This document shows positions 93 to 14,706 of a stretch of DNA of 23,524 nucleotides, in pieces. The stretch is from IMG/VR virus record IMGVR_UViG_3300029319_006928, positions 22,956 through 46,479 of that record; one strand, given 5' to 3'. Both the position numbers and the translations under genes were made by a program. The stretch's first letter is position 1; every line of letters starts with the position of its first letter. The notes beneath the pieces are model-generated. The model saw only the letters and a list, made by a program, of their open reading frames with translations, did not search any database and had not been told where the DNA came from. This DNA comes from a virus.

Positions 93-356
93 CTATCCGT
101 TGATAGTTACTTCTTGACGTGCAAAGCTTGGCTTTTCAATTACAGTATTGTGATTAAATACTCTCCAGCCATTTTGGTCAAGATCAAACACTACTTCATG
201 TTTTGTATCCAAGTAACGTGGTTTTGTACCAGAACCTCGAAGACTTTGTGGAACAGCATTTTCTTTTAAGAAACGCATTTGACGAGTTGTTCCGTCTTTC
301 TTTGTGAAGCTTCCGGTGTAAACGTTAGCGTTGAATGTGAATGAATTTGTAGACAT
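93..356 (-). CDS. Small DUF2693-like (SH3-fold) phage protein
   Basis: An 87-residue protein. The order of features, an early KKDGTTRQMRF segment and a late VVFDLDQNGWRVFN segment, resembles the small DUF2693/SH3-like beta-barrel family common in phage and plasmid accessory regions. No function is established for that family. The start ATG at 356 has a strong GGAGG four bases upstream. It is the most downstream gene seen and follows a 214-base AT-rich gap carrying two consensus sigma70 promoters, so it is probably an early, highly expressed gene. The family call comes from remembered motif pattern and was not checked by search. Confidence 0.7.
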   Translation of the reverse strand: MSTNSFTFNANVYTGSFTKKDGTTRQMRFLKENAVPQSLRGSGTKPRYLDTKHEVVFDLDQNGWRVFNHNTVIEKPSFARQEVTING

Positions 357-439: not shown

Positions 440-468
440 ATTATAACATGTTCTTAACATTTTGTCAA
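440..468 (-). promoter_or_regulatory. Sigma70 promoter (perfect consensus, extended -10)
   Basis: Reading the minus strand, TTGACA (468-463) is followed by exactly 17 bases and then TATAAT (445-440). A TG lies one base before the -10 box, giving an extended -10. Expected transcript start is near 433, with about 77 bases of leader before the 87-residue gene at 356. Confidence 0.85.
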
Positions 469-570: not shown

Positions 571-756
571 TTATTTTTTTAAAAAAGTTAGAATTTTTTC
601 TGCTTCTTGTTGAATCTGCTCTGTAGTTGGAGCTGTAGTTTTAGTTCCAGTTTGAATTAACATGTGGGTTTGTTCTGTTAAGATTTCTCTAGCCATATGA
701 AAAGCAGTTAAACGAAGATCTCGTTCATTTTTTTTTAATTGTTCTTTTTCACTCAT
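571..756 (-). CDS. Small hypothetical phage protein
   Basis: A 61-residue charged protein beginning MSEKEQLKKNERDLRL and ending in a helical QQEAEKILTFLKK tail. I chose ATG 756 because GGAG sits five bases upstream and a perfect promoter lies just before it; an upstream in-frame ATG at 798 has no ribosome site and would lie upstream of the predicted transcript start. It looks like the many short helical proteins of marine T4-like phages that accompany accessory genes, but I cannot assign a function. It lies between the pspA-like gene and the promoter-rich gap. Confidence 0.7.
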   Translation of the reverse strand: MSEKEQLKKNERDLRLTAFHMAREILTEQTHMLIQTGTKTTAPTTEQIQQEAEKILTFLKK

Positions 757-786
757 GTTGTCTCCTTTTTTATTTTGAGTAATTAT

Positions 787-815
787 ATTATAACACATTT
801 TAATAGATGTGTCAA
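787..815 (-). promoter_or_regulatory. Sigma70 promoter (perfect consensus, extended -10)
   Basis: On the minus strand, TTGACA (815-810), a 17-base spacer and TATAAT (792-787), with TG one base before the -10 box. The predicted start near 780 leaves a short leader of about 24 bases before ATG 756. It lies directly after the end of the pspA-like gene, marking a new transcription unit. Confidence 0.85.
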
Positions 816-822
816 GTTTTTT

Positions 823-1521
823 TTATAAATTTTTCTGAACGTTTAAAGTTTTACCTTGTTGAGACTTTAGTAGTTCTAATTGTTTTTTTGCTTTTAATCT
901 AGCAGAACTAGATTTAAACTTTTTCATTTTAAAAGAAGAAGAATTAGCTACTAATTCTGTATTAAGATTTGATTTAGCAATGTCTTCATCTATTTGTTCT
1001 CTTATATTTTCAATTGCTTTTACATCAGCATCTTCAGAGATACCATTGATTTTTTCAAAAGTCTCATTTTTAAGTTGAGCAGCTTTGTGCTGTGCTAATT
1101 TAAAAGATCTTTCTCTTTTTAATTTTTCAATATCATCTCTGTGATCTGTTAATGAACTTATTGCTTCTTCGCATTGAGAATTAAGTGTTTTAGCTTCATT
1201 GTCTAATTGTATTATTCTCTCTTCTAGTTCATTTTTTTGTTCTAAAAGCATAAGAGAATTTTCATCGTCTCCTTCGTTTAAACAATTTTCCAAAAACATT
1301 TCAACCTCATCAAGTCTTTTCCTCTCATCCTCCAGAGAAGAATTGGTTTTGTTCCTAAGCATTGTTAAGTTGGCAACAGCTTCTCTTAATTTTTTATGCT
1401 GTGCTATTTTGTTGTTTATGGCTTGTTCATATACTAGGGCAGGATTTGATTTTTCAATCCCTCCCACTAGTGAATAAAAAAATCCAGATATAAGATTTGC
1501 TATCCTGTTGAATATATTCAT
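823..1521 (-). CDS. pspA-like: PspA/IM30 (Vipp1) family protein, ESCRT-III-like membrane remodeller
   Basis: A 232-residue protein. Residues 1-24 form an amphipathic membrane-binding type helix (MNIFNRIANLISGFFYSLV...), as PspA/IM30 proteins have at helix 0. Residues 28-190 are long heptad-rich coiled coil, and an LxxCLNEGDDENSL turn near 77-92 matches the position of the conserved loop between PspA helices. The tail is Lys-rich. Length fits PspA (about 220-230). Family members bind stressed or curved membrane and polymerise into rods or rings of the ESCRT-III fold; that role here is inferred. ATG 1521 overlaps the TGA of the tubulin-like gene by four bases and has GGAGG four bases upstream, so the two are translationally coupled. 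A sigma70-type promoter inside the upstream gene (1692-1720) may give it independent expression. Confidence 0.82.
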   Translation of the reverse strand: MNIFNRIANLISGFFYSLVGGIEKSNPALVYEQAINNKIAQHKKLREAVANLTMLRNKTNSSLEDERKRLDEVEMFLENCLNEGDDENSLMLLEQKNELEERIIQLDNEAKTLNSQCEEAISSLTDHRDDIEKLKRERSFKLAQHKAAQLKNETFEKINGISEDADVKAIENIREQIDEDIAKSNLNTELVANSSSFKMKKFKSSSARLKAKKQLELLKSQQGKTLNVQKNL

Positions 1522-2327
1522 GATTCCTCCGATTGTTGAATATAGTGTGTAAACTTTATGGAATAGAAAAACGAGTGTTCAGACCCGTTTTCCCAAATTC
1601 CAAAGGTTGTGTTATTTTTTGTCTCAAGATAAGTCCTTATATTGTTTAAAAGATGTTTGTCGTTTTCTTTTTTGTAAGAACTTATACTATAATAATAACA
1701 TGATTCTGTTATGTTGTCAAGTAAAAAATACAAATTTTCTTTATTTTTTTCTATTTCTCCGATTGACACGGTACGAATTCTTGATATTTCTTTTGGTTCA
1801 TGTAAGTTACCCATAATTGGTTGAGTATTTTTGAACCATTTATAATTTGCAAGAAAGTTAGCGATGGCTGCATTTGCATTATCATAGTAAGAACCAAGAG
1901 CACCTTCTCCAACGATTGAAGAAATTATTTTATTATCAAAAAGCCAAAGAGAATGAACCATTCCAGATCTTGCATATTCTTGTAAAACATTAAAAACTAC
2001 TTTATGTTGGAGTTTTTGAGTTTTAGATAAAAAGAAAGGATCAGGTATAATGTACAAAACTTTTATTTCTTTATCTTTTATTTGCTCTAATATTTTAAGA
2101 GTTGCACCAGAAACTTTAGATGCTCCACAAACAATAAACCAAATGTCCTCTTCCTTTCCAAGTCTCAATTTATTTCCTAATTTAGGGACGCTAGATTCGT
2201 ATTCTTCATGCGTTTGGCACTTAGGTAAGCCTTTACCCTCGTCCAAGGTTATCGTCTTGTATTTGCCCAAATTCTCAAGCTTACGGCATATGTTTATTCC
2301 AGCGTTTCCAAGTCCGATTGTTATCAT
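1518..2327 (-). CDS. Tubulin/FtsZ-like GTPase-fold protein
   Basis: A 269-residue protein with FtsZ/tubulin landmarks in the right order. G5-LGNAG is the first nucleotide loop. The strand KTITLDEG (about 24-31) takes the place of FtsZ AINTDAQ. C67-GASKVSGA takes the place of the GGGTGTG signature. KVLYIIPDPFF (89-99) takes the place of VAVVTKPF. LFDNKIISSIVG (129-140) takes the place of IPNDKLLKVLG, and YDNANAAIANFLANY (148-162) matches core helix H7. The following loop, GNLHEPKE, takes the place of the catalytic T7 loop but lacks its NxDxxD acids. A short C-terminal beta domain follows. It is shorter than FtsZ (about 380) or jumbo-phage PhuZ (about 315). ATG 2327 overlaps the polymerase TGA by four bases, with AGGAG upstream. 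A filament or scaffold role is inferred; GTP hydrolysis is doubtful. Confidence 0.8.
   Translation of the reverse strand: MITIGLGNAGINICRKLENLGKYKTITLDEGKGLPKCQTHEEYESSVPKLGNKLRLGKEEDIWFIVCGASKVSGATLKILEQIKDKEIKVLYIIPDPFFLSKTQKLQHKVVFNVLQEYARSGMVHSLWLFDNKIISSIVGEGALGSYYDNANAAIANFLANYKWFKNTQPIMGNLHEPKEISRIRTVSIGEIEKNKENLYFLLDNITESCYYYSISSYKKENDKHLLNNIRTYLETKNNTTFGIWENGSEHSFFYSIKFTHYIQQSEES
1692..1720 (-). promoter_or_regulatory. Sigma70-type promoter inside the tubulin-like gene
   Basis: On the minus strand, TTGACA (1720-1715), a 17-base spacer and TATTAT (1697-1692), with TG one base before the -10 box, as in the intergenic promoters at the left. It lies in coding sequence about 165 bases before the predicted leader reaches the pspA-like start at 1521, and could drive that gene alone. 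Confidence 0.6.
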
Positions 2328-3499
2328 TTTAGCTCTCCTAAGTTCTTTCCAACGTTAATGTTCACTTTGAACTTTCCAAGTTTGGTGTTTTCAAATATTT
2401 CAACAATCTCTTTTATTCTTTGTTTCTCAGAAAAAGGAACGTCCAACACTATTGAATCATGAACAAGAAATGCTACGTTGGTTTTTAATCCTTTACAGTA
2501 TTTGTGGATTGCACAGGCTCTGTCAAGGAAGTTGTCTGAAGATGTAGATTGGATAAGGTAGTTGAGTGCATGGAAATCATCTGAAGGTATTGCTCTTCCA
2601 AACGGAGTAGTAACAATTCCCTCCTCATAATGTTTCTCCAAGACTTTTGACTTATCATAGTAGTCAGTAGTAACTGCTGTTGAAGTTGGGTTATAGAGCC
2701 ATGCAAAGATCTTCTTCTTAGCATCAGCTCGTTCAATAGTATTATTAAAAATGTTAGTTTGATTCCAATCATGTATATCCTCGTGTGGTTGTGGGTGCCC
2801 GGAGAGGTGTAGTAGGGTTCTCAACTCGGCACCATTAAAGTCAAGCTCCACAAAACAATCCCATTTAGGCTCTATAATGTCCTTTAGTGAGGTCTTAAGG
2901 TTAAGGATGGGAAAAGACCCTTGGTTAAGTCCCAAGCGTCCTGTAACGGTGCCCCAAGGGTTGTAATCGACAAAAGACTTGCCTTCCCAATGAGACTTAA
3001 CAAGATACATTGCTTTCTGATCTGTTTTGGCGTGTTGTTTCCATTTACCTTTATTAAATCTTATCTCTTGTTGAGCAATTTCTTTGCACATAATGTTTAA
3101 ATTATGCATCAATCTGTAGTTTTTGGGTTTTGGATTATTAGATACTGTCCATTCTGTAATTTCGTTTAAAAGACTGTAGTAATGTTGTATGTCTTTATCA
3201 GGTACAAGGTTGTAAAAACAAACATCTGAAAGATTTATCTTGGAAGAGATGAAAGATTTAAGGTGTGCTTTAATTTTTCTTTCTCTTACTTCCAGTCTTT
3301 CTCTTAAATGCTCGGGACAAGCTTGTTGAATTGTTTTTCCCTCTGCGATTATCTTTGCTAGTATTACATCTCGATCGTCAATAAGTTCTGACCAGTCCCA
3401 TGTAGTAGTAAGAGACTCAGGCAAGTCTCTTAATCTTAATCTGCCGTCAGCAAAGTAACCACGGCATTCTTTTTTATCATCAATAATTTGAAAAATCAT
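2324..3499 (-). CDS. polA-like: Family A DNA polymerase, polymerase domain only
   Basis: A 391-residue protein with the PolA core. TGRLGLNQGSFPILNLK (186-202) matches the TGRLS...NLQNIP region. Motif A is D220-FNGAELR (usual DYSQIELR) with Asp, Glu and Arg kept. The O-helix R257-ADAKKKIFAWLY keeps the Arg, Lys, Phe and Tyr spacing of E. coli R754/K758/F762/Y766. Q316 matches the Q helix, and motif C is H347-DS instead of HDE. The start leaves only about 180 residues before the palm, too short for the 3'-5' exonuclease domain, and none of its DxE-type motifs is visible. It presumably copies phage DNA, or repairs it, using a proofreading activity from elsewhere or none. ATG 3499 overlaps the preceding TAA by one base with GGAGG upstream; its own stop overlaps the tubulin-like start. 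Confidence 0.9.
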   Translation of the reverse strand: MIFQIIDDKKECRGYFADGRLRLRDLPESLTTTWDWSELIDDRDVILAKIIAEGKTIQQACPEHLRERLEVRERKIKAHLKSFISSKINLSDVCFYNLVPDKDIQHYYSLLNEITEWTVSNNPKPKNYRLMHNLNIMCKEIAQQEIRFNKGKWKQHAKTDQKAMYLVKSHWEGKSFVDYNPWGTVTGRLGLNQGSFPILNLKTSLKDIIEPKWDCFVELDFNGAELRTLLHLSGHPQPHEDIHDWNQTNIFNNTIERADAKKKIFAWLYNPTSTAVTTDYYDKSKVLEKHYEEGIVTTPFGRAIPSDDFHALNYLIQSTSSDNFLDRACAIHKYCKGLKTNVAFLVHDSIVLDVPFSEKQRIKEIVEIFENTKLGKFKVNINVGKNLGELK

Positions 3500-4761
3500 T
3501 ATTCCTCCGGTAAAAATGGATTTGTGTAATTATCAAAATATTTTTTCTTATCCTCCTGTTTTTTTAAGGCTTTATTAATTCCGCCTTCTTTTTGAGAATA
3601 AGAATACACAAACTGTTCATTAATATACCTTATTGATGTTTGTTTGTCAAGTTTATTTTTAAAAAAAATTGCTTTATCTTTAAGTCTTGCGATGTCAGCG
3701 CGAGGATAAAAATTTTGTTCTTCTATATTTCTGATTTCTATGTAAAGTTCAAACAATTGATTTTCTGAAAAATAAGAAAAGAAATTATCATTATTTATTT
3801 CTTGCCTTATTTTAAACGTTCTTTTAATTTTTTTATTTTCTATTTTTGTACTTTTATATTCAGGATAAATTCTTCTAAATTTGTTATATAATAATATAAT
3901 ATTATCTTTAAATATATTAATATCATTATAATATAATATATTATATTTAACTCTATAGAAAGATTCATTATTATAAATTTCATAATCTTTTAACAAACCA
4001 TCACCATTTGATTTTTTTAATTTGTAAGAATCCATGTTTGGATTAAAAACTAAAATCCAAGGACATTGAAAATGTAAAACAAAACCATGAGTTTCTGCTT
4101 GTAGTTTAAATTGTTCAAAATTTTGAGAGTTTATGAATTGTGATTTTTGTTCATCATTCCCACAATCATAATCAGTTATAGAAAAACATAGACCTGTGTT
4201 AAAAATGCTACTATGTCTTGACTTTTGCCATGCGACCCTAGTGAACGGCAACTCTGATCCTATTTTTTTAAAAAACTTTAAAAAGTGCTTGACAAACGAC
4301 TTGAAATCAACTATACTAGAATAGTTATTATTTGCTTCAATTTCCTCTCTAAATAAAGATTCTATTTCTTTTATGTAACTATTGTAAGAAACGTAAGGAG
4401 AACTATATGATTTAAAACATGTTATTTTTGATAAGTAAGGATCTTGCAGATCAAAATTATTTTTATTATCCAACAAAATTTGTGTAAATTCAGTTTTTAA
4501 TTTGTCAAATGCATCAACAGCAATGTCTAATCCTGAAAATTCATTTAAAAATTGTATTTTGCTCTCATTAACCCAAACCGAGTTTAATTGATAATCAGTT
4601 TTACCATAATAAATGTATTCAAAACTATTAAAATCTATAACACTAGAAAGTATCTCATCATCACTGTCCAATAATGCTGAAGAGAAATAATCTGCTCTTT
4701 GATAAAACTTGCTTCTTAAGTCTTCTGTATCATTATTCGCTGTAAAAATTTTTTTACTCAT
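3499..4761 (-). CDS. Conserved-looking phage protein of unknown function (420 aa)
   Basis: A very Asn/Lys/Tyr/Phe-rich 420-residue protein with no signal peptide or clear membrane segment. The middle, about 168-250, carries LPFTRVAWQKSR, then TGLCFSI, KSQFINSQNFEQF and HGFVLHFQCPWILVFNPN. I recall this pattern (LPFTR...SGL...FI...F...GF...PW.LV) from unassigned proteins of large marine myoviruses encoded next to tail genes, but no function is known to me. It starts six bases after the 1447-residue gene (GGAGG present) and is coupled to the polymerase gene by TAATG. A virion or baseplate role is possible from position only. Its base composition is even more AT-rich than its neighbours, with runs of Asn/Ile codons near 3880-3970. 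Confidence 0.65.
   Translation of the reverse strand: MSKKIFTANNDTEDLRSKFYQRADYFSSALLDSDDEILSSVIDFNSFEYIYYGKTDYQLNSVWVNESKIQFLNEFSGLDIAVDAFDKLKTEFTQILLDNKNNFDLQDPYLSKITCFKSYSSPYVSYNSYIKEIESLFREEIEANNNYSSIVDFKSFVKHFLKFFKKIGSELPFTRVAWQKSRHSSIFNTGLCFSITDYDCGNDEQKSQFINSQNFEQFKLQAETHGFVLHFQCPWILVFNPNMDSYKLKKSNGDGLLKDYEIYNNESFYRVKYNILYYNDINIFKDNIILLYNKFRRIYPEYKSTKIENKKIKRTFKIRQEINNDNFFSYFSENQLFELYIEIRNIEEQNFYPRADIARLKDKAIFFKNKLDKQTSIRYINEQFVYSYSQKEGGINKALKKQEDKKKYFDNYTNPFLPEE
3622..3650 (-). promoter_or_regulatory. Sigma70-type promoter ahead of the polymerase gene
   Basis: On the minus strand, TTGACA (3650-3645), a 17-base spacer and TATATT (3627-3622). It is inside the 3' end of the 420-residue gene and would give a leader of about 115 bases before the polymerase ATG at 3499. 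Unlike the left promoters it lacks the extra TG. Confidence 0.6.
4289..4317 (+). promoter_or_regulatory. Possible antisense sigma70 promoter
   Basis: On the plus strand, TTGACA (4289-4294), a 17-base spacer and TATACT (4312-4317). It points against every gene in the window and lies inside the 420-residue gene. It may be a chance match in AT-rich DNA or the start of an antisense transcript. Confidence 0.3.
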
Positions 4762-12637: not shown

Positions 12638-12997
12638 TTATTCCTCGTCTTTAAAAGGCCAAGTAATACCTGTTGTTTGTTCAAAATGATCAACAGCTTG
12701 ATCTAATAGTTCTTTTGTTTTTTGAGACTTTGGATGTTCTGATCCGTATTTTACAAAATCGTCTAAATAATTTTTTTCTGCTACAATTGCTTGAGCATAG
12801 GCTCTAACATCTACTTCTTCTCCACGGATAACAAATTTTAATTTGTTGTCTTCGGTTTCTTTCAATTGAGAAATATCTGCTGTTATAACAACATCATCTC
12901 CATACATGTATTTTAAAAGCGTTTTGTTCCAAGATGCCATGGCTCTCATCCAGTTTTCTTTTAAGAGTTTCTTATTAGTAAAATCAATCTCAAACAT
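12638..12997 (-). CDS. Unknown 119-residue tail-region protein
   Basis: An acidic 119-residue protein with an aromatic N-terminal helix (ENWMRAMASWNKTLLKYMYGD), a small beta section (VVITADIS...LKFVIRGEEVDV) and a helical acidic end (ELLDQAVDHFEQTTGITWPFK). I do not recognise a family. It is the first gene after a terminator and a late-promoter-like box, and directly precedes the tape measure gene. In T4 the equivalent gap holds genes 27 and 28; in other phages this slot belongs to tape-measure chaperones. A tape-measure-binding role is only positional inference. Start ATG 12997 has CGAGGA upstream. Confidence 0.6.
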   Translation of the reverse strand: MFEIDFTNKKLLKENWMRAMASWNKTLLKYMYGDDVVITADISQLKETEDNKLKFVIRGEEVDVRAYAQAIVAEKNYLDDFVKYGSEHPKSQKTKELLDQAVDHFEQTTGITWPFKDEE

Positions 12998-13013
12998 ATT
13001 GTATCCTCGTTAA

Positions 13014-13024
13014 CTATAAATAGT
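13014..13024 (-). promoter_or_regulatory. Late-promoter-like box ACTATTTATAG
   Basis: One of four copies of ACTATTTA(C/T) found in this window, all in gaps between structural genes. It lies just after a terminator and 17 bases before ATG 12997, with CGAGGA between, so it may start the tape-measure operon. It is inside a perfect inverted repeat (13010-13027, 8-base arms), and the opposite strand reads TATAAATA, the T4 late consensus, so orientation is not certain. Confidence 0.5.
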
Positions 13025-13031
13025 TAAAAAC

Positions 13032-13053
13032 AAAAAACCCGACTACTATCGGG
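13032..13053 (-). terminator. Rho-independent terminator after the gene 26 unit
   Basis: In RNA sense (minus strand): CCCGA, a six-base loop TAGTAG, TCGGG, then a run of six T (13037-13032). The stop codon of the 56-residue ORF lies in the loop. It separates the gp26 pair from the 119-residue/tape measure unit. Confidence 0.85.
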
Positions 13054-13216
13054 CTTTTCTAATTTGTTGTTCATGAAACTTCTTTTCATCTTCAAACTGC
13101 TTAACTAATCTATTAAAAAACCAAAATCTTAAACCAACTGGTAAATTATAAAGTTCAGTAAAAGACCACTTTCCATGATGCATCATAGAAAACATCTGTT
13201 CATAAACTGATTCCAT
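13046..13216 (-). CDS. Small overlapping-frame partner of gp26 (gp51 position; probable frameshift extension)
   Basis: A 56-residue ORF, MESVYEQMFSMMHHGKWSFT..., rich in aromatic and charged residues with a central NLPVGLRFWFFNRL helix. It sits right after gene 26, where T4 places gene 51. Its reading frame is +1 (or -2) to gene 26 and is open back through a run of seven T (13241-13235) at the end of gene 26. Its ATG at 13216 lies four bases after the gene 26 stop and has no Shine-Dalgarno, unlike almost every other gene here. It is therefore probably made as a gp26 fusion by frameshifting, as in tail-assembly chaperone G/GT pairs, or by reinitiation. It ends inside the terminator hairpin. 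Confidence 0.65.
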   Translation of the reverse strand: MESVYEQMFSMMHHGKWSFTELYNLPVGLRFWFFNRLVKQFEDEKKFHEQQIRKAR

Positions 13217-13220
13217 GTAT

Positions 13221-14048
13221 TTATCTGTTAGGCCAAAAAAAGTCTGCCCCGAAAGGCACCTCCAATTCTTGTGTGTGATTACAAGAGTAACATTGGAAAT
13301 TATGTTTTAATTCTACATTAGGATTTAGACTTTTATATGTTTTTTTCAAAAATGCCGCGTCTTTTATTGGCATCAAATCAATAAACTCAAAAAGTAATTT
13401 TTTATCAGTTACACCATTAGCAGACACAATCATCATCCTGTAGTGATCAATCATGGTGCTAGTTTTTTGAGAAGAAATCATTTTTATAATTTTCTTTTCG
13501 TCTTCACCTCTTAGTAATTTTATTTCTAAATTTACTTTTGAACTTGGTAAAGAGATTTCAAAATTGCCTTTTTCATTTAATTTAGCATGTTCTGGTACAA
13601 GACCATGATGCACCCTCTCAGTTTGAGAAATACCAAATTCATGAACATCTTTCTTACCACAATTTGGACAAATAACTTCTGTTTGATAAACATTTCCATA
13701 GCCTGTTTTTCTGGCTGCAATAAGAATTGCATTTTTATCACCAATTAAAAGAGAGTCTGTGCTTATCTGTTTATTAATAATAATGTTATTTAACATTCTA
13801 TCTAACGCAACACCTTCTTTGAGTAAAGATGGTGAACTTAAAGTATCTTCATCTTTTGCTGTCATATGTTTAACTTCAATAGTGTTTTTACCTTTAAGAG
13901 GATGTCCCTCAGGATAATAAAGACCTTTTGACGGTAGTTCAACGAACTCTGTTGGAGTTACAAAATTCAATAAACTGTTTTGTGGTTTTTGTTCTGTTTG
14001 TTGTGGCGGTAAAGGAGCCATCATCCTATCATTATTTCTATTTGTCAT
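13221..14048 (-). CDS. 26: gp26-like tail/baseplate assembly protein with Zn ribbon
   Basis: A 275-residue protein matching the T4 baseplate gp26 family (T4_baseplate): VELPSKGLYYPEGHPLKGK (37-55), then VKHMTAKDEDTLSSPSLLK, then LIGDKNAILIAARKTGYG. Paired cysteines CPNC near 128 and CYSC near 256 form a split Zn ribbon. In T4, gp26 acts with gp51 in hub assembly and has no clear place in the finished baseplate, so a chaperone role is likely. ATG 14048 has GAGG upstream. The end overlaps a T7 run that could shift ribosomes into the next small ORF. It starts a unit bounded by a late-promoter-like box upstream and the terminator at 13032. Confidence 0.85.
   Translation of the reverse strand: MTNRNNDRMMAPLPPQQTEQKPQNSLLNFVTPTEFVELPSKGLYYPEGHPLKGKNTIEVKHMTAKDEDTLSSPSLLKEGVALDRMLNNIIINKQISTDSLLIGDKNAILIAARKTGYGNVYQTEVICPNCGKKDVHEFGISQTERVHHGLVPEHAKLNEKGNFEISLPSSKVNLEIKLLRGEDEKKIIKMISSQKTSTMIDHYRMMIVSANGVTDKKLLFEFIDLMPIKDAAFLKKTYKSLNPNVELKHNFQCYSCNHTQELEVPFGADFFWPNR
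13235..13241 (-). promoter_or_regulatory. Candidate ribosomal frameshift site (seven T)
   Basis: Gene 26 reads GAC TTT TTT TGG here, five codons before its stop. Moving +1 or -2 on the T run continues as GGC CTA ACA GAT AAA TAC ATG into the 56-residue ORF with no stop. A -1 move meets a stop after two codons. Confidence 0.5.
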
Positions 14049-14058
14049 TTTTACCTCA

Positions 14059-14069
14059 TAGTAAATAGT
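14059..14069 (-). promoter_or_regulatory. Late-promoter-like box ACTATTTACTA
   Basis: It begins two bases after the stop of the second tube gene and is ten bases upstream of gene 26 ATG, with GAGG between. The core is identical to the box at 22467. If used like a -10 element the leader would be too short to hold the ribosome site, so it may instead be a processing or binding site. Confidence 0.4.
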
Positions 14070-14070
14070 T

Positions 14071-14706
14071 TTAATCTGTTATATTTTGTGTTGTCAGTGT
14101 GCAAGAATCATATTCTAAATCTATAGTGATTAAGTTAGTATCTTCTGAGCCGTAATCTAAATCACCAAAATTTATACCAGTCAAGATTGGCGATTCTATT
14201 GTCCAAACTTGGGCTAATTTGCCACTGACTATTGCGGTTCCAAGACCTTCACCAGCAGACACAACTTTTTCTTTTTTACCTGTGAACTTATAAATTTCTA
14301 TTTGTGAAAACTTTATACTACTATTTTCAACTTGCCCTAGAGCTAATTTCGAGTCTTTAGCTAGCGAATCTGGTACATCACCAAAGTTTAAACCCGGCAA
14401 TAGAAACCTACCAGTATTAAATAAGCCAGCTGCTAAAGATTCCTCATTAGTGTTCAGGCCACCAACAAGGTCTGTGTCATAAAAAGAAATTTTTATTGGT
14501 TGCCATTGAACTGTACCTTCTGTTCTCACCATTTTATTACCCAAAAGAACAGTTTCCACATTTCTTTGAAGAGAAGGTAAGGATAAGTCCTTTACTCTAT
14601 AGGTAAATTTTTGAGTAGTATTTTCTTCTTCTACAATAAACTTGACTTGAAAATCAAATTTTCTACTAGGCTGTATGCCAAACCCTTCTTTGTTCCACCA
14701 AGTCAT
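14071..14706 (-). CDS. Second tail-tube-like protein (gp19 paralogue)
   Basis: A 211-residue protein. It shares with the gene directly upstream an N-terminal W-x-x-G, a R/KKFDFQVKF strand, a V-K-x-L-S-x-P-S strand, TVQWQPIKISFYD (matching KIKWNDVEVTLID), and an end of ILTGINFGDLDYGSEDTNLI (matching FITNVKFGDFDYSSEDMREI) followed by YD.C. So it has the gp19 tube fold with a longer central loop (about 85-150). T4 gp54 and gp48 also use this fold, so this may be a minor tube, terminator or initiator ring. It starts ten bases after gene 19 with a weak AGG site, suggesting lower output. Confidence 0.75.
   Translation of the reverse strand: MTWWNKEGFGIQPSRKFDFQVKFIVEEENTTQKFTYRVKDLSLPSLQRNVETVLLGNKMVRTEGTVQWQPIKISFYDTDLVGGLNTNEESLAAGLFNTGRFLLPGLNFGDVPDSLAKDSKLALGQVENSSIKFSQIEIYKFTGKKEKVVSAGEGLGTAIVSGKLAQVWTIESPILTGINFGDLDYGSEDTNLITIDLEYDSCTLTTQNITD

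Follow-up and report, generated by a model that had tools for sequence, protein, structure and literature searches.

A tubulin-like gene in the replication cluster of uncultivated ocean phages and its occasional PspA-type neighbour

On the minus strand of a viral genome fragment, the gene for a tubulin-like protein runs with a short overlap into the gene for a PspA-type membrane protein. An earlier note on this DNA had proposed that the two products form a joint cytoskeleton and membrane-remodelling module. Do both proteins act together, or did two genes of separate histories become neighbours? The window, i.e. the whole stretch of DNA analysed, comprises 23,524 nucleotides (bases 22956-46479 of a viral record of 46,479 bases). 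The overall best explanation, which we consider rather probable, is that a core tubulin-like replication gene lies beside a PspA cargo gene of separate history.

Gene layout and predicted folds

Four overlapping open reading frames form a chain on the minus strand. A frame of 420 amino acids (3499-4761) is followed by a family-A DNA polymerase that lacks an exonuclease domain (2324..3499; 391 amino acids; PF00476, E = 1.4e-13; phrog_17, E = 5e-22), the tubulin/FtsZ-superfamily gene (1518..2327; 269 amino acids, ATG start) and the PspA/Vipp1-type gene of the ESCRT-III superfamily (823..1521; 232 amino acids, ATG start). The lengths of the latter two frames and their ATGA stop/start overlap (1518-1521, TCAT on the plus strand) were exactly as had been noted earlier. 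A second ATGA overlap, between polymerase and tubulin-like gene (2324-2327), was missing from the earlier note. Further along the minus strand are a conserved small protein of 75 amino acids (571..798) and, by domain match, a WYL_2/Sm-like protein of 87 amino acids (93..356). Beyond the window genes for a gp32-like SSB, UvsX, a 5'-3' exonuclease and a DnaB-like helicase follow. The capsid protein of the window belongs to the T4 family (phrog_138) and capsid and replication genes are of T4 type; judged from this capsid protein, the phage clade which carries the tubulin-like family is T4-like. The isolates nearest by major capsid protein are members of the T4 superfamily with 39-51% identity, Flavobacterium phage immuto (51%), Microcystis phage Mel-JY01 (43%) and Rhodothermus phage RM378 (39%).

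The AlphaFold2 model of the 269-residue protein was based on an alignment of 41 relatives (mean pLDDT 92.3, pTM 0.91). Its elements are ordered as in tubulins, a Rossmann-type sheet, a long central helix (144-167) and a C-terminal beta domain. A Foldseek search of the PDB returned FtsZ, TubZ, CetZ or tubulin as all of the best 50 matches (E = 5.9e-11, TM-score 0.63-0.72 by query, 10-15% identity). The best viral folds in BFVD were annotated as FtsZ, cell division protein or tubulin. The nearest were 'FtsZ Cell division GTPase' A0A6J5RW92 from an uncultured Caudovirales phage and related entries (E = 7e-11); the top two, compared by fold only, have 387-452 amino acids and are 12-13% identical to the 269-residue protein. 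By sequence the relationship was weak. Pfam scores of the family remained below threshold (best Tubulin, E = 0.0048), with TrkA_N as frequent as Tubulin, and hhalign against E. coli FtsZ and two PhuZ proteins reached a probability of 21%. Because this match is weak, superfamily membership rests mainly on the predicted structure. Could the protein then be a plain dinucleotide-binding Rossmann protein of the TrkA_N or oxidoreductase type, which resembles tubulin solely at its N-terminal glycine loop? The frequent TrkA_N scores would fit; however, the whole chain including the long central helix and the C-terminal beta domain matched exclusively FtsZ, TubZ, CetZ and tubulin among the top 50 PDB structures. 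The whole-chain search led us to reject this identity, to which we assign hardly any probability. By its predicted fold, the protein belongs to the tubulin/FtsZ superfamily.

The 232-residue protein was recognized by Pfam as PspA_IM30 (PF04012; 56.1 bits at a cut-off of 33.9, E = 5e-15). Its model comprises alpha0 to alpha5 with hairpin, alpha4 and alpha5 formed by helices 27-82, 86-160, 167-198 and 205-229. Model confidence was only moderate (pTM 0.49) because the alignment held just three sequences. Solved Vipp1 and PspA structures were the top structural matches. With Vipp1/IM30 and PspA the protein shares the PspA_IM30 domain, an amphipathic alpha0 (residues 1-18; hydrophobic moment 0.61, mean hydrophobicity 0.77), the long hairpin, alpha4 and alpha5. 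It differs in that it is phage-encoded, about 20% identical and without Psp operon genes nearby: PspF-, PspB- or PspC-type partners were absent among the operon neighbours, which are replication and small phage genes. PADLOC produced a weak match only, and a phage-encoded PspA was not found in the open-access literature. Structure prediction and Foldseek, which the earlier note had proposed as a check, were run on both proteins. The tubulin core and the ESCRT-III hairpin were present, and both family assignments were borne out, that of the tubulin-like protein weakly by sequence and strongly by structure.

Constant and variable neighbours

Sampling by peptide words yielded at least 78 lineages of the tubulin-like family (clusters at 95% identity) from uncultivated ocean phages; the counts given here refer to these retrieved relatives, not to all phages. 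The motif ILEQIKD was rejected as an invariant family signature; it is a search word and was present in 46 of the 78 lineages of the wider set. A tblastn search of 50,697 phage records with the tubulin-like protein, PspA and one distant family member returned nothing, and among the nearest isolated phages no family member was detected by profile search. Two scans of bacterial and archaeal genome contigs found no cellular relatives, a weak result as the method needs exact peptide words. The family is widespread in uncultivated phages, yet nearly invisible to Pfam.

Which genes accompany the tubulin-like gene across these lineages? A DNA polymerase was located upstream within 800 nt in 66 of the 71 lineages with readable upstream DNA. 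In 54 of the 71 it was adjacent (at most 40 nt), and in 42 the genes overlapped by ATGA. Downstream, a gp32-like SSB was encoded in 67 of 69 lineages with readable DNA, with UvsX behind it. Across relatives the family-A polymerase has about 390-400 amino acids and consists of a polymerase domain, the exonuclease domain being absent. This demonstrated that the tubulin-like gene is a fixed member of a phage replication cluster with polymerase and SSB/UvsX as its constant partners. A tubulin coupled to a phage polymerase was not found in the open-access literature. Immuto and Mel-JY01 have the gene order PolA - x - gp32-like SSB - UvsX in common with the clade of the window, where x in these two phages includes an unrelated protein of 130-150 amino acids; the tubulin-like family is absent from both and from RM378.

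Two side observations concern this region. T4-like relatives carry a conserved protein of 130-150 amino acids between polymerase and SSB (L115, 1346-1801; L116, 2121-2564; L117, 3785-4174), close to the place which the tubulin-like gene has in the window's clade. Motif C of the polymerase (2324-3499 in the window) is HDS here and in some relatives and HDE in L061, i.e. the second acidic residue varies.

PspA was a rare neighbour. It adjoined the tubulin-like gene in 2 of the 78 lineages, a lower bound, namely in the window and in L006/L007/L085, which are one virus (>99.8% identity). No third PspA lineage emerged from 2.9 million viral contigs in a targeted search; in 16 relatives, searched over the whole contig, PspA was confined to the L006/L007/L085 lineage. 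The two PspA proteins are 65% identical and in both viruses the gene overlaps the tubulin-like gene by ATGA; co-translation of PspA with the tubulin-like protein is therefore possible. Between the window and L007 both genes are under purifying selection (dN/dS about 0.17 for the tubulin-like gene and 0.21 for PspA). On a poorly resolved tree the two PspA lineages were never sisters (0% of bootstraps). The nearest tree relatives of the window are L005, in which the place of PspA is empty, and L001, in which it is taken by an unrelated gene for a 351-residue protein.

This place, bordered by the tubulin-like gene on one side and the SSB operon on the other, is a variable slot. In the window's clade the conserved small protein of 75 amino acids bounds its far end. 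Besides PspA and the 351-residue protein it contained a GmrSD-like protein (PF03235; L003), a 205-residue protein together with a GHKL ATPase (PF13589; L010-L012), or a protein of 611 residues (L013). Cargo was absent in L002, L008, L009 and L014, and in L002 and L008 a 61-residue reading of the small protein comes immediately after the tubulin-like gene. Thus, PspA is an accessory cargo gene and an occasional neighbour of the tubulin-like gene. As a side observation, PADLOC matched the GmrSD-like protein to NsnA/PD-T4-2_A and, weakly, the GHKL ATPase to MzaB; it made no defence assignment for the tubulin-like protein. Possibly the slot (L001, L003, L010-L013) is a hotspot for defence or counter-defence.

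A promoter-like site lies inside the tubulin-like gene. Codons 203-213 encode a predicted sigma70-type TTGACA-N17-TATTAT with an extended TG (1692..1720, minus strand). The motif occurred at any position in 57 of the 78 lineages and at the homologous site in 49, compared to a mean of 4.8 and a maximum of 10 after synonymous codon shuffling. Within the clade of the window, 9 of the 13 codons for invariant residues in this stretch were frozen, compared to 31 of 123 over the gene as a whole (p = 5e-4). The site is directed towards the slot, here PspA, and the SSB operon. Therefore, expression of PspA could be independent of the tubulin-like protein, and judged by sequence the site could drive slot and SSB operon separately. 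Further near-perfect TTGACA-N17-TATAAT sites with an extended TG were seen in gaps between the small genes (787-815, 541-569 and 440-468, minus strand).

How does the proposed joint module fare? A tubulin filament and a PspA coat would cooperate in remodelling the membrane or in bringing phage DNA to it. Both folds were confirmed by models and fold search, and the ATGA coupling is retained in two viruses with 65% identity between their PspA proteins. However, as far as readable, 76 of the 78 lineages lack the pairing, the slot may hold other, unrelated genes instead, the two lineages with PspA do not group as sisters and the internal promoter-like site could uncouple both genes. The earlier note had regarded genes that are never neighbours in related phages as evidence against the module. 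Strictly, 'never' does not apply since two lineages pair the genes, but such pairs occur rarely and in a patchy pattern. The rare pairing, the contigs of relatives and the tree ruled out the module as a general explanation, and we regard it as very improbable. In the two PspA-bearing viruses a real interaction of both proteins may exist. The attractive reading of the gene pair was misleading; comparison across relatives alone revealed the constant neighbour.

Motif loss and possible roles

The T1 glycine-rich loop was retained in 77 of 78 tubulin-like lineages, N132 at the start of H6 in 77 and N152 in H7 in all 78. Mapped by the order of elements rather than by superposed coordinates, both residues appear to fall at the guanine-binding Asn positions of tubulins. 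The T4 signature GGGTG[ST]G was present in none of the 78 lineages; GASKVSG, GSSYSSN or GGSGxIS stand there instead. The T7 synergy loop NxDxx[DE] was absent from all 56 members of one set and present once among the 78 lineages, a chance match in L119. In the model a short loop lies behind the central helix, helix H8 is missing, and the chain ends with a strand (253-260) and nine residues, without a long C-terminal helix after residue 260. Because T1 and two Asn are kept while the T4 signature, H8 and T7 are lost, the family probably binds nucleotide and hydrolyses it poorly, i.e. without the hydrolysis which drives the dynamics of PhuZ and FtsZ.

FtsZ, TubZ and CetZ share with the family the whole-chain fold, the T1 loop and Asn at the H6 and H7 positions. 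In contrast, the family is only 10-15% identical to them, lacks both motifs, has a shortened H8 region and a length of 269 residues in the window, and scores under the Pfam cut-off. PhuZ from nucleus-forming jumbo phages is likewise a phage-encoded member of the tubulin superfamily and is also below the Pfam cut-off (28-32 bits). Yet PhuZ has GG[GA]SGS, a catalytic T7 loop (PMC7950403), and a C-terminal helix and tail, all absent here. Unlike PhuZ, the family of the window is coupled to a PolA polymerase.

Blocking host cell division is a known phage strategy. A decoy which caps or poisons the host FtsZ ring and halts division during infection would agree with this and with an FtsZ-like fold of which one functional end is altered, as would suit a cap. 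However, the gene is strictly coupled to DNA polymerase, SSB and UvsX and not to early takeover genes; we consider a decoy unlikely. Rated lower still is a dynamic cytoskeleton like PhuZ or TubZ, which would use GTP hydrolysis to centre or segregate the site of phage replication. The fold nearest to FtsZ and TubZ and the position in a replication cluster are in line with it, and this role is known from phage tubulins: PhuZ forms dynamic filaments which move phage DNA (PMC7950403). Against it stand the missing T4 signature, the effectively missing T7 motif, the shortened H8 region and the absent C-terminal helix. Catalytic T7 mutants of PhuZ which lose hydrolysis yield nondynamic filaments and mispositioned nucleoids (PMC7950403), which makes a PhuZ-like motor improbable for this family. 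Thus, the analogy to PhuZ drawn in the earlier note was weakened.

Above both we rank, tentatively, a role in the phage replisome, either as a static scaffold or as an accessory factor. The protein would bind nucleotide, hydrolyse it poorly and, translationally coupled to the family-A polymerase, be made in step with it. Our best reading is a new, degenerate family of phage tubulins which would serve replication. A little more doubtful is the narrower version, a tubulin fold minus GTPase catalysis that is now a dedicated, non-cytoskeletal component or scaffold of the replisome coupled to the polymerase. The position in the replication cluster falls short of proof for a replisome role. Binding to the replisome or phage DNA would reveal that replication has recruited a tubulin fold; continued filament formation would make the protein a natural tubulin of poor hydrolysis. 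For PspA, the family and the predicted fold suggest, with about even chances, a membrane-protecting cargo, which would coat and stabilize the host inner membrane in infection independently of the tubulin-like protein; the two genes, of separate histories, would simply be neighbours in the window.

Finally, two features were observed in L083. A phage ClpS, a Clp protease adaptor, is encoded in the same viral record (1184-1507, minus strand; PF02617, E = 7e-30) beside an adenosine-deaminase-like gene. Four otherwise unrelated reading frames on the minus strand (2767-3420, 3354-3986, 12783-13400 and 13800-14426) have an N-terminal stretch like MKLTKQKLEQLIMEEY in common, which resembles a common signal or propeptide.
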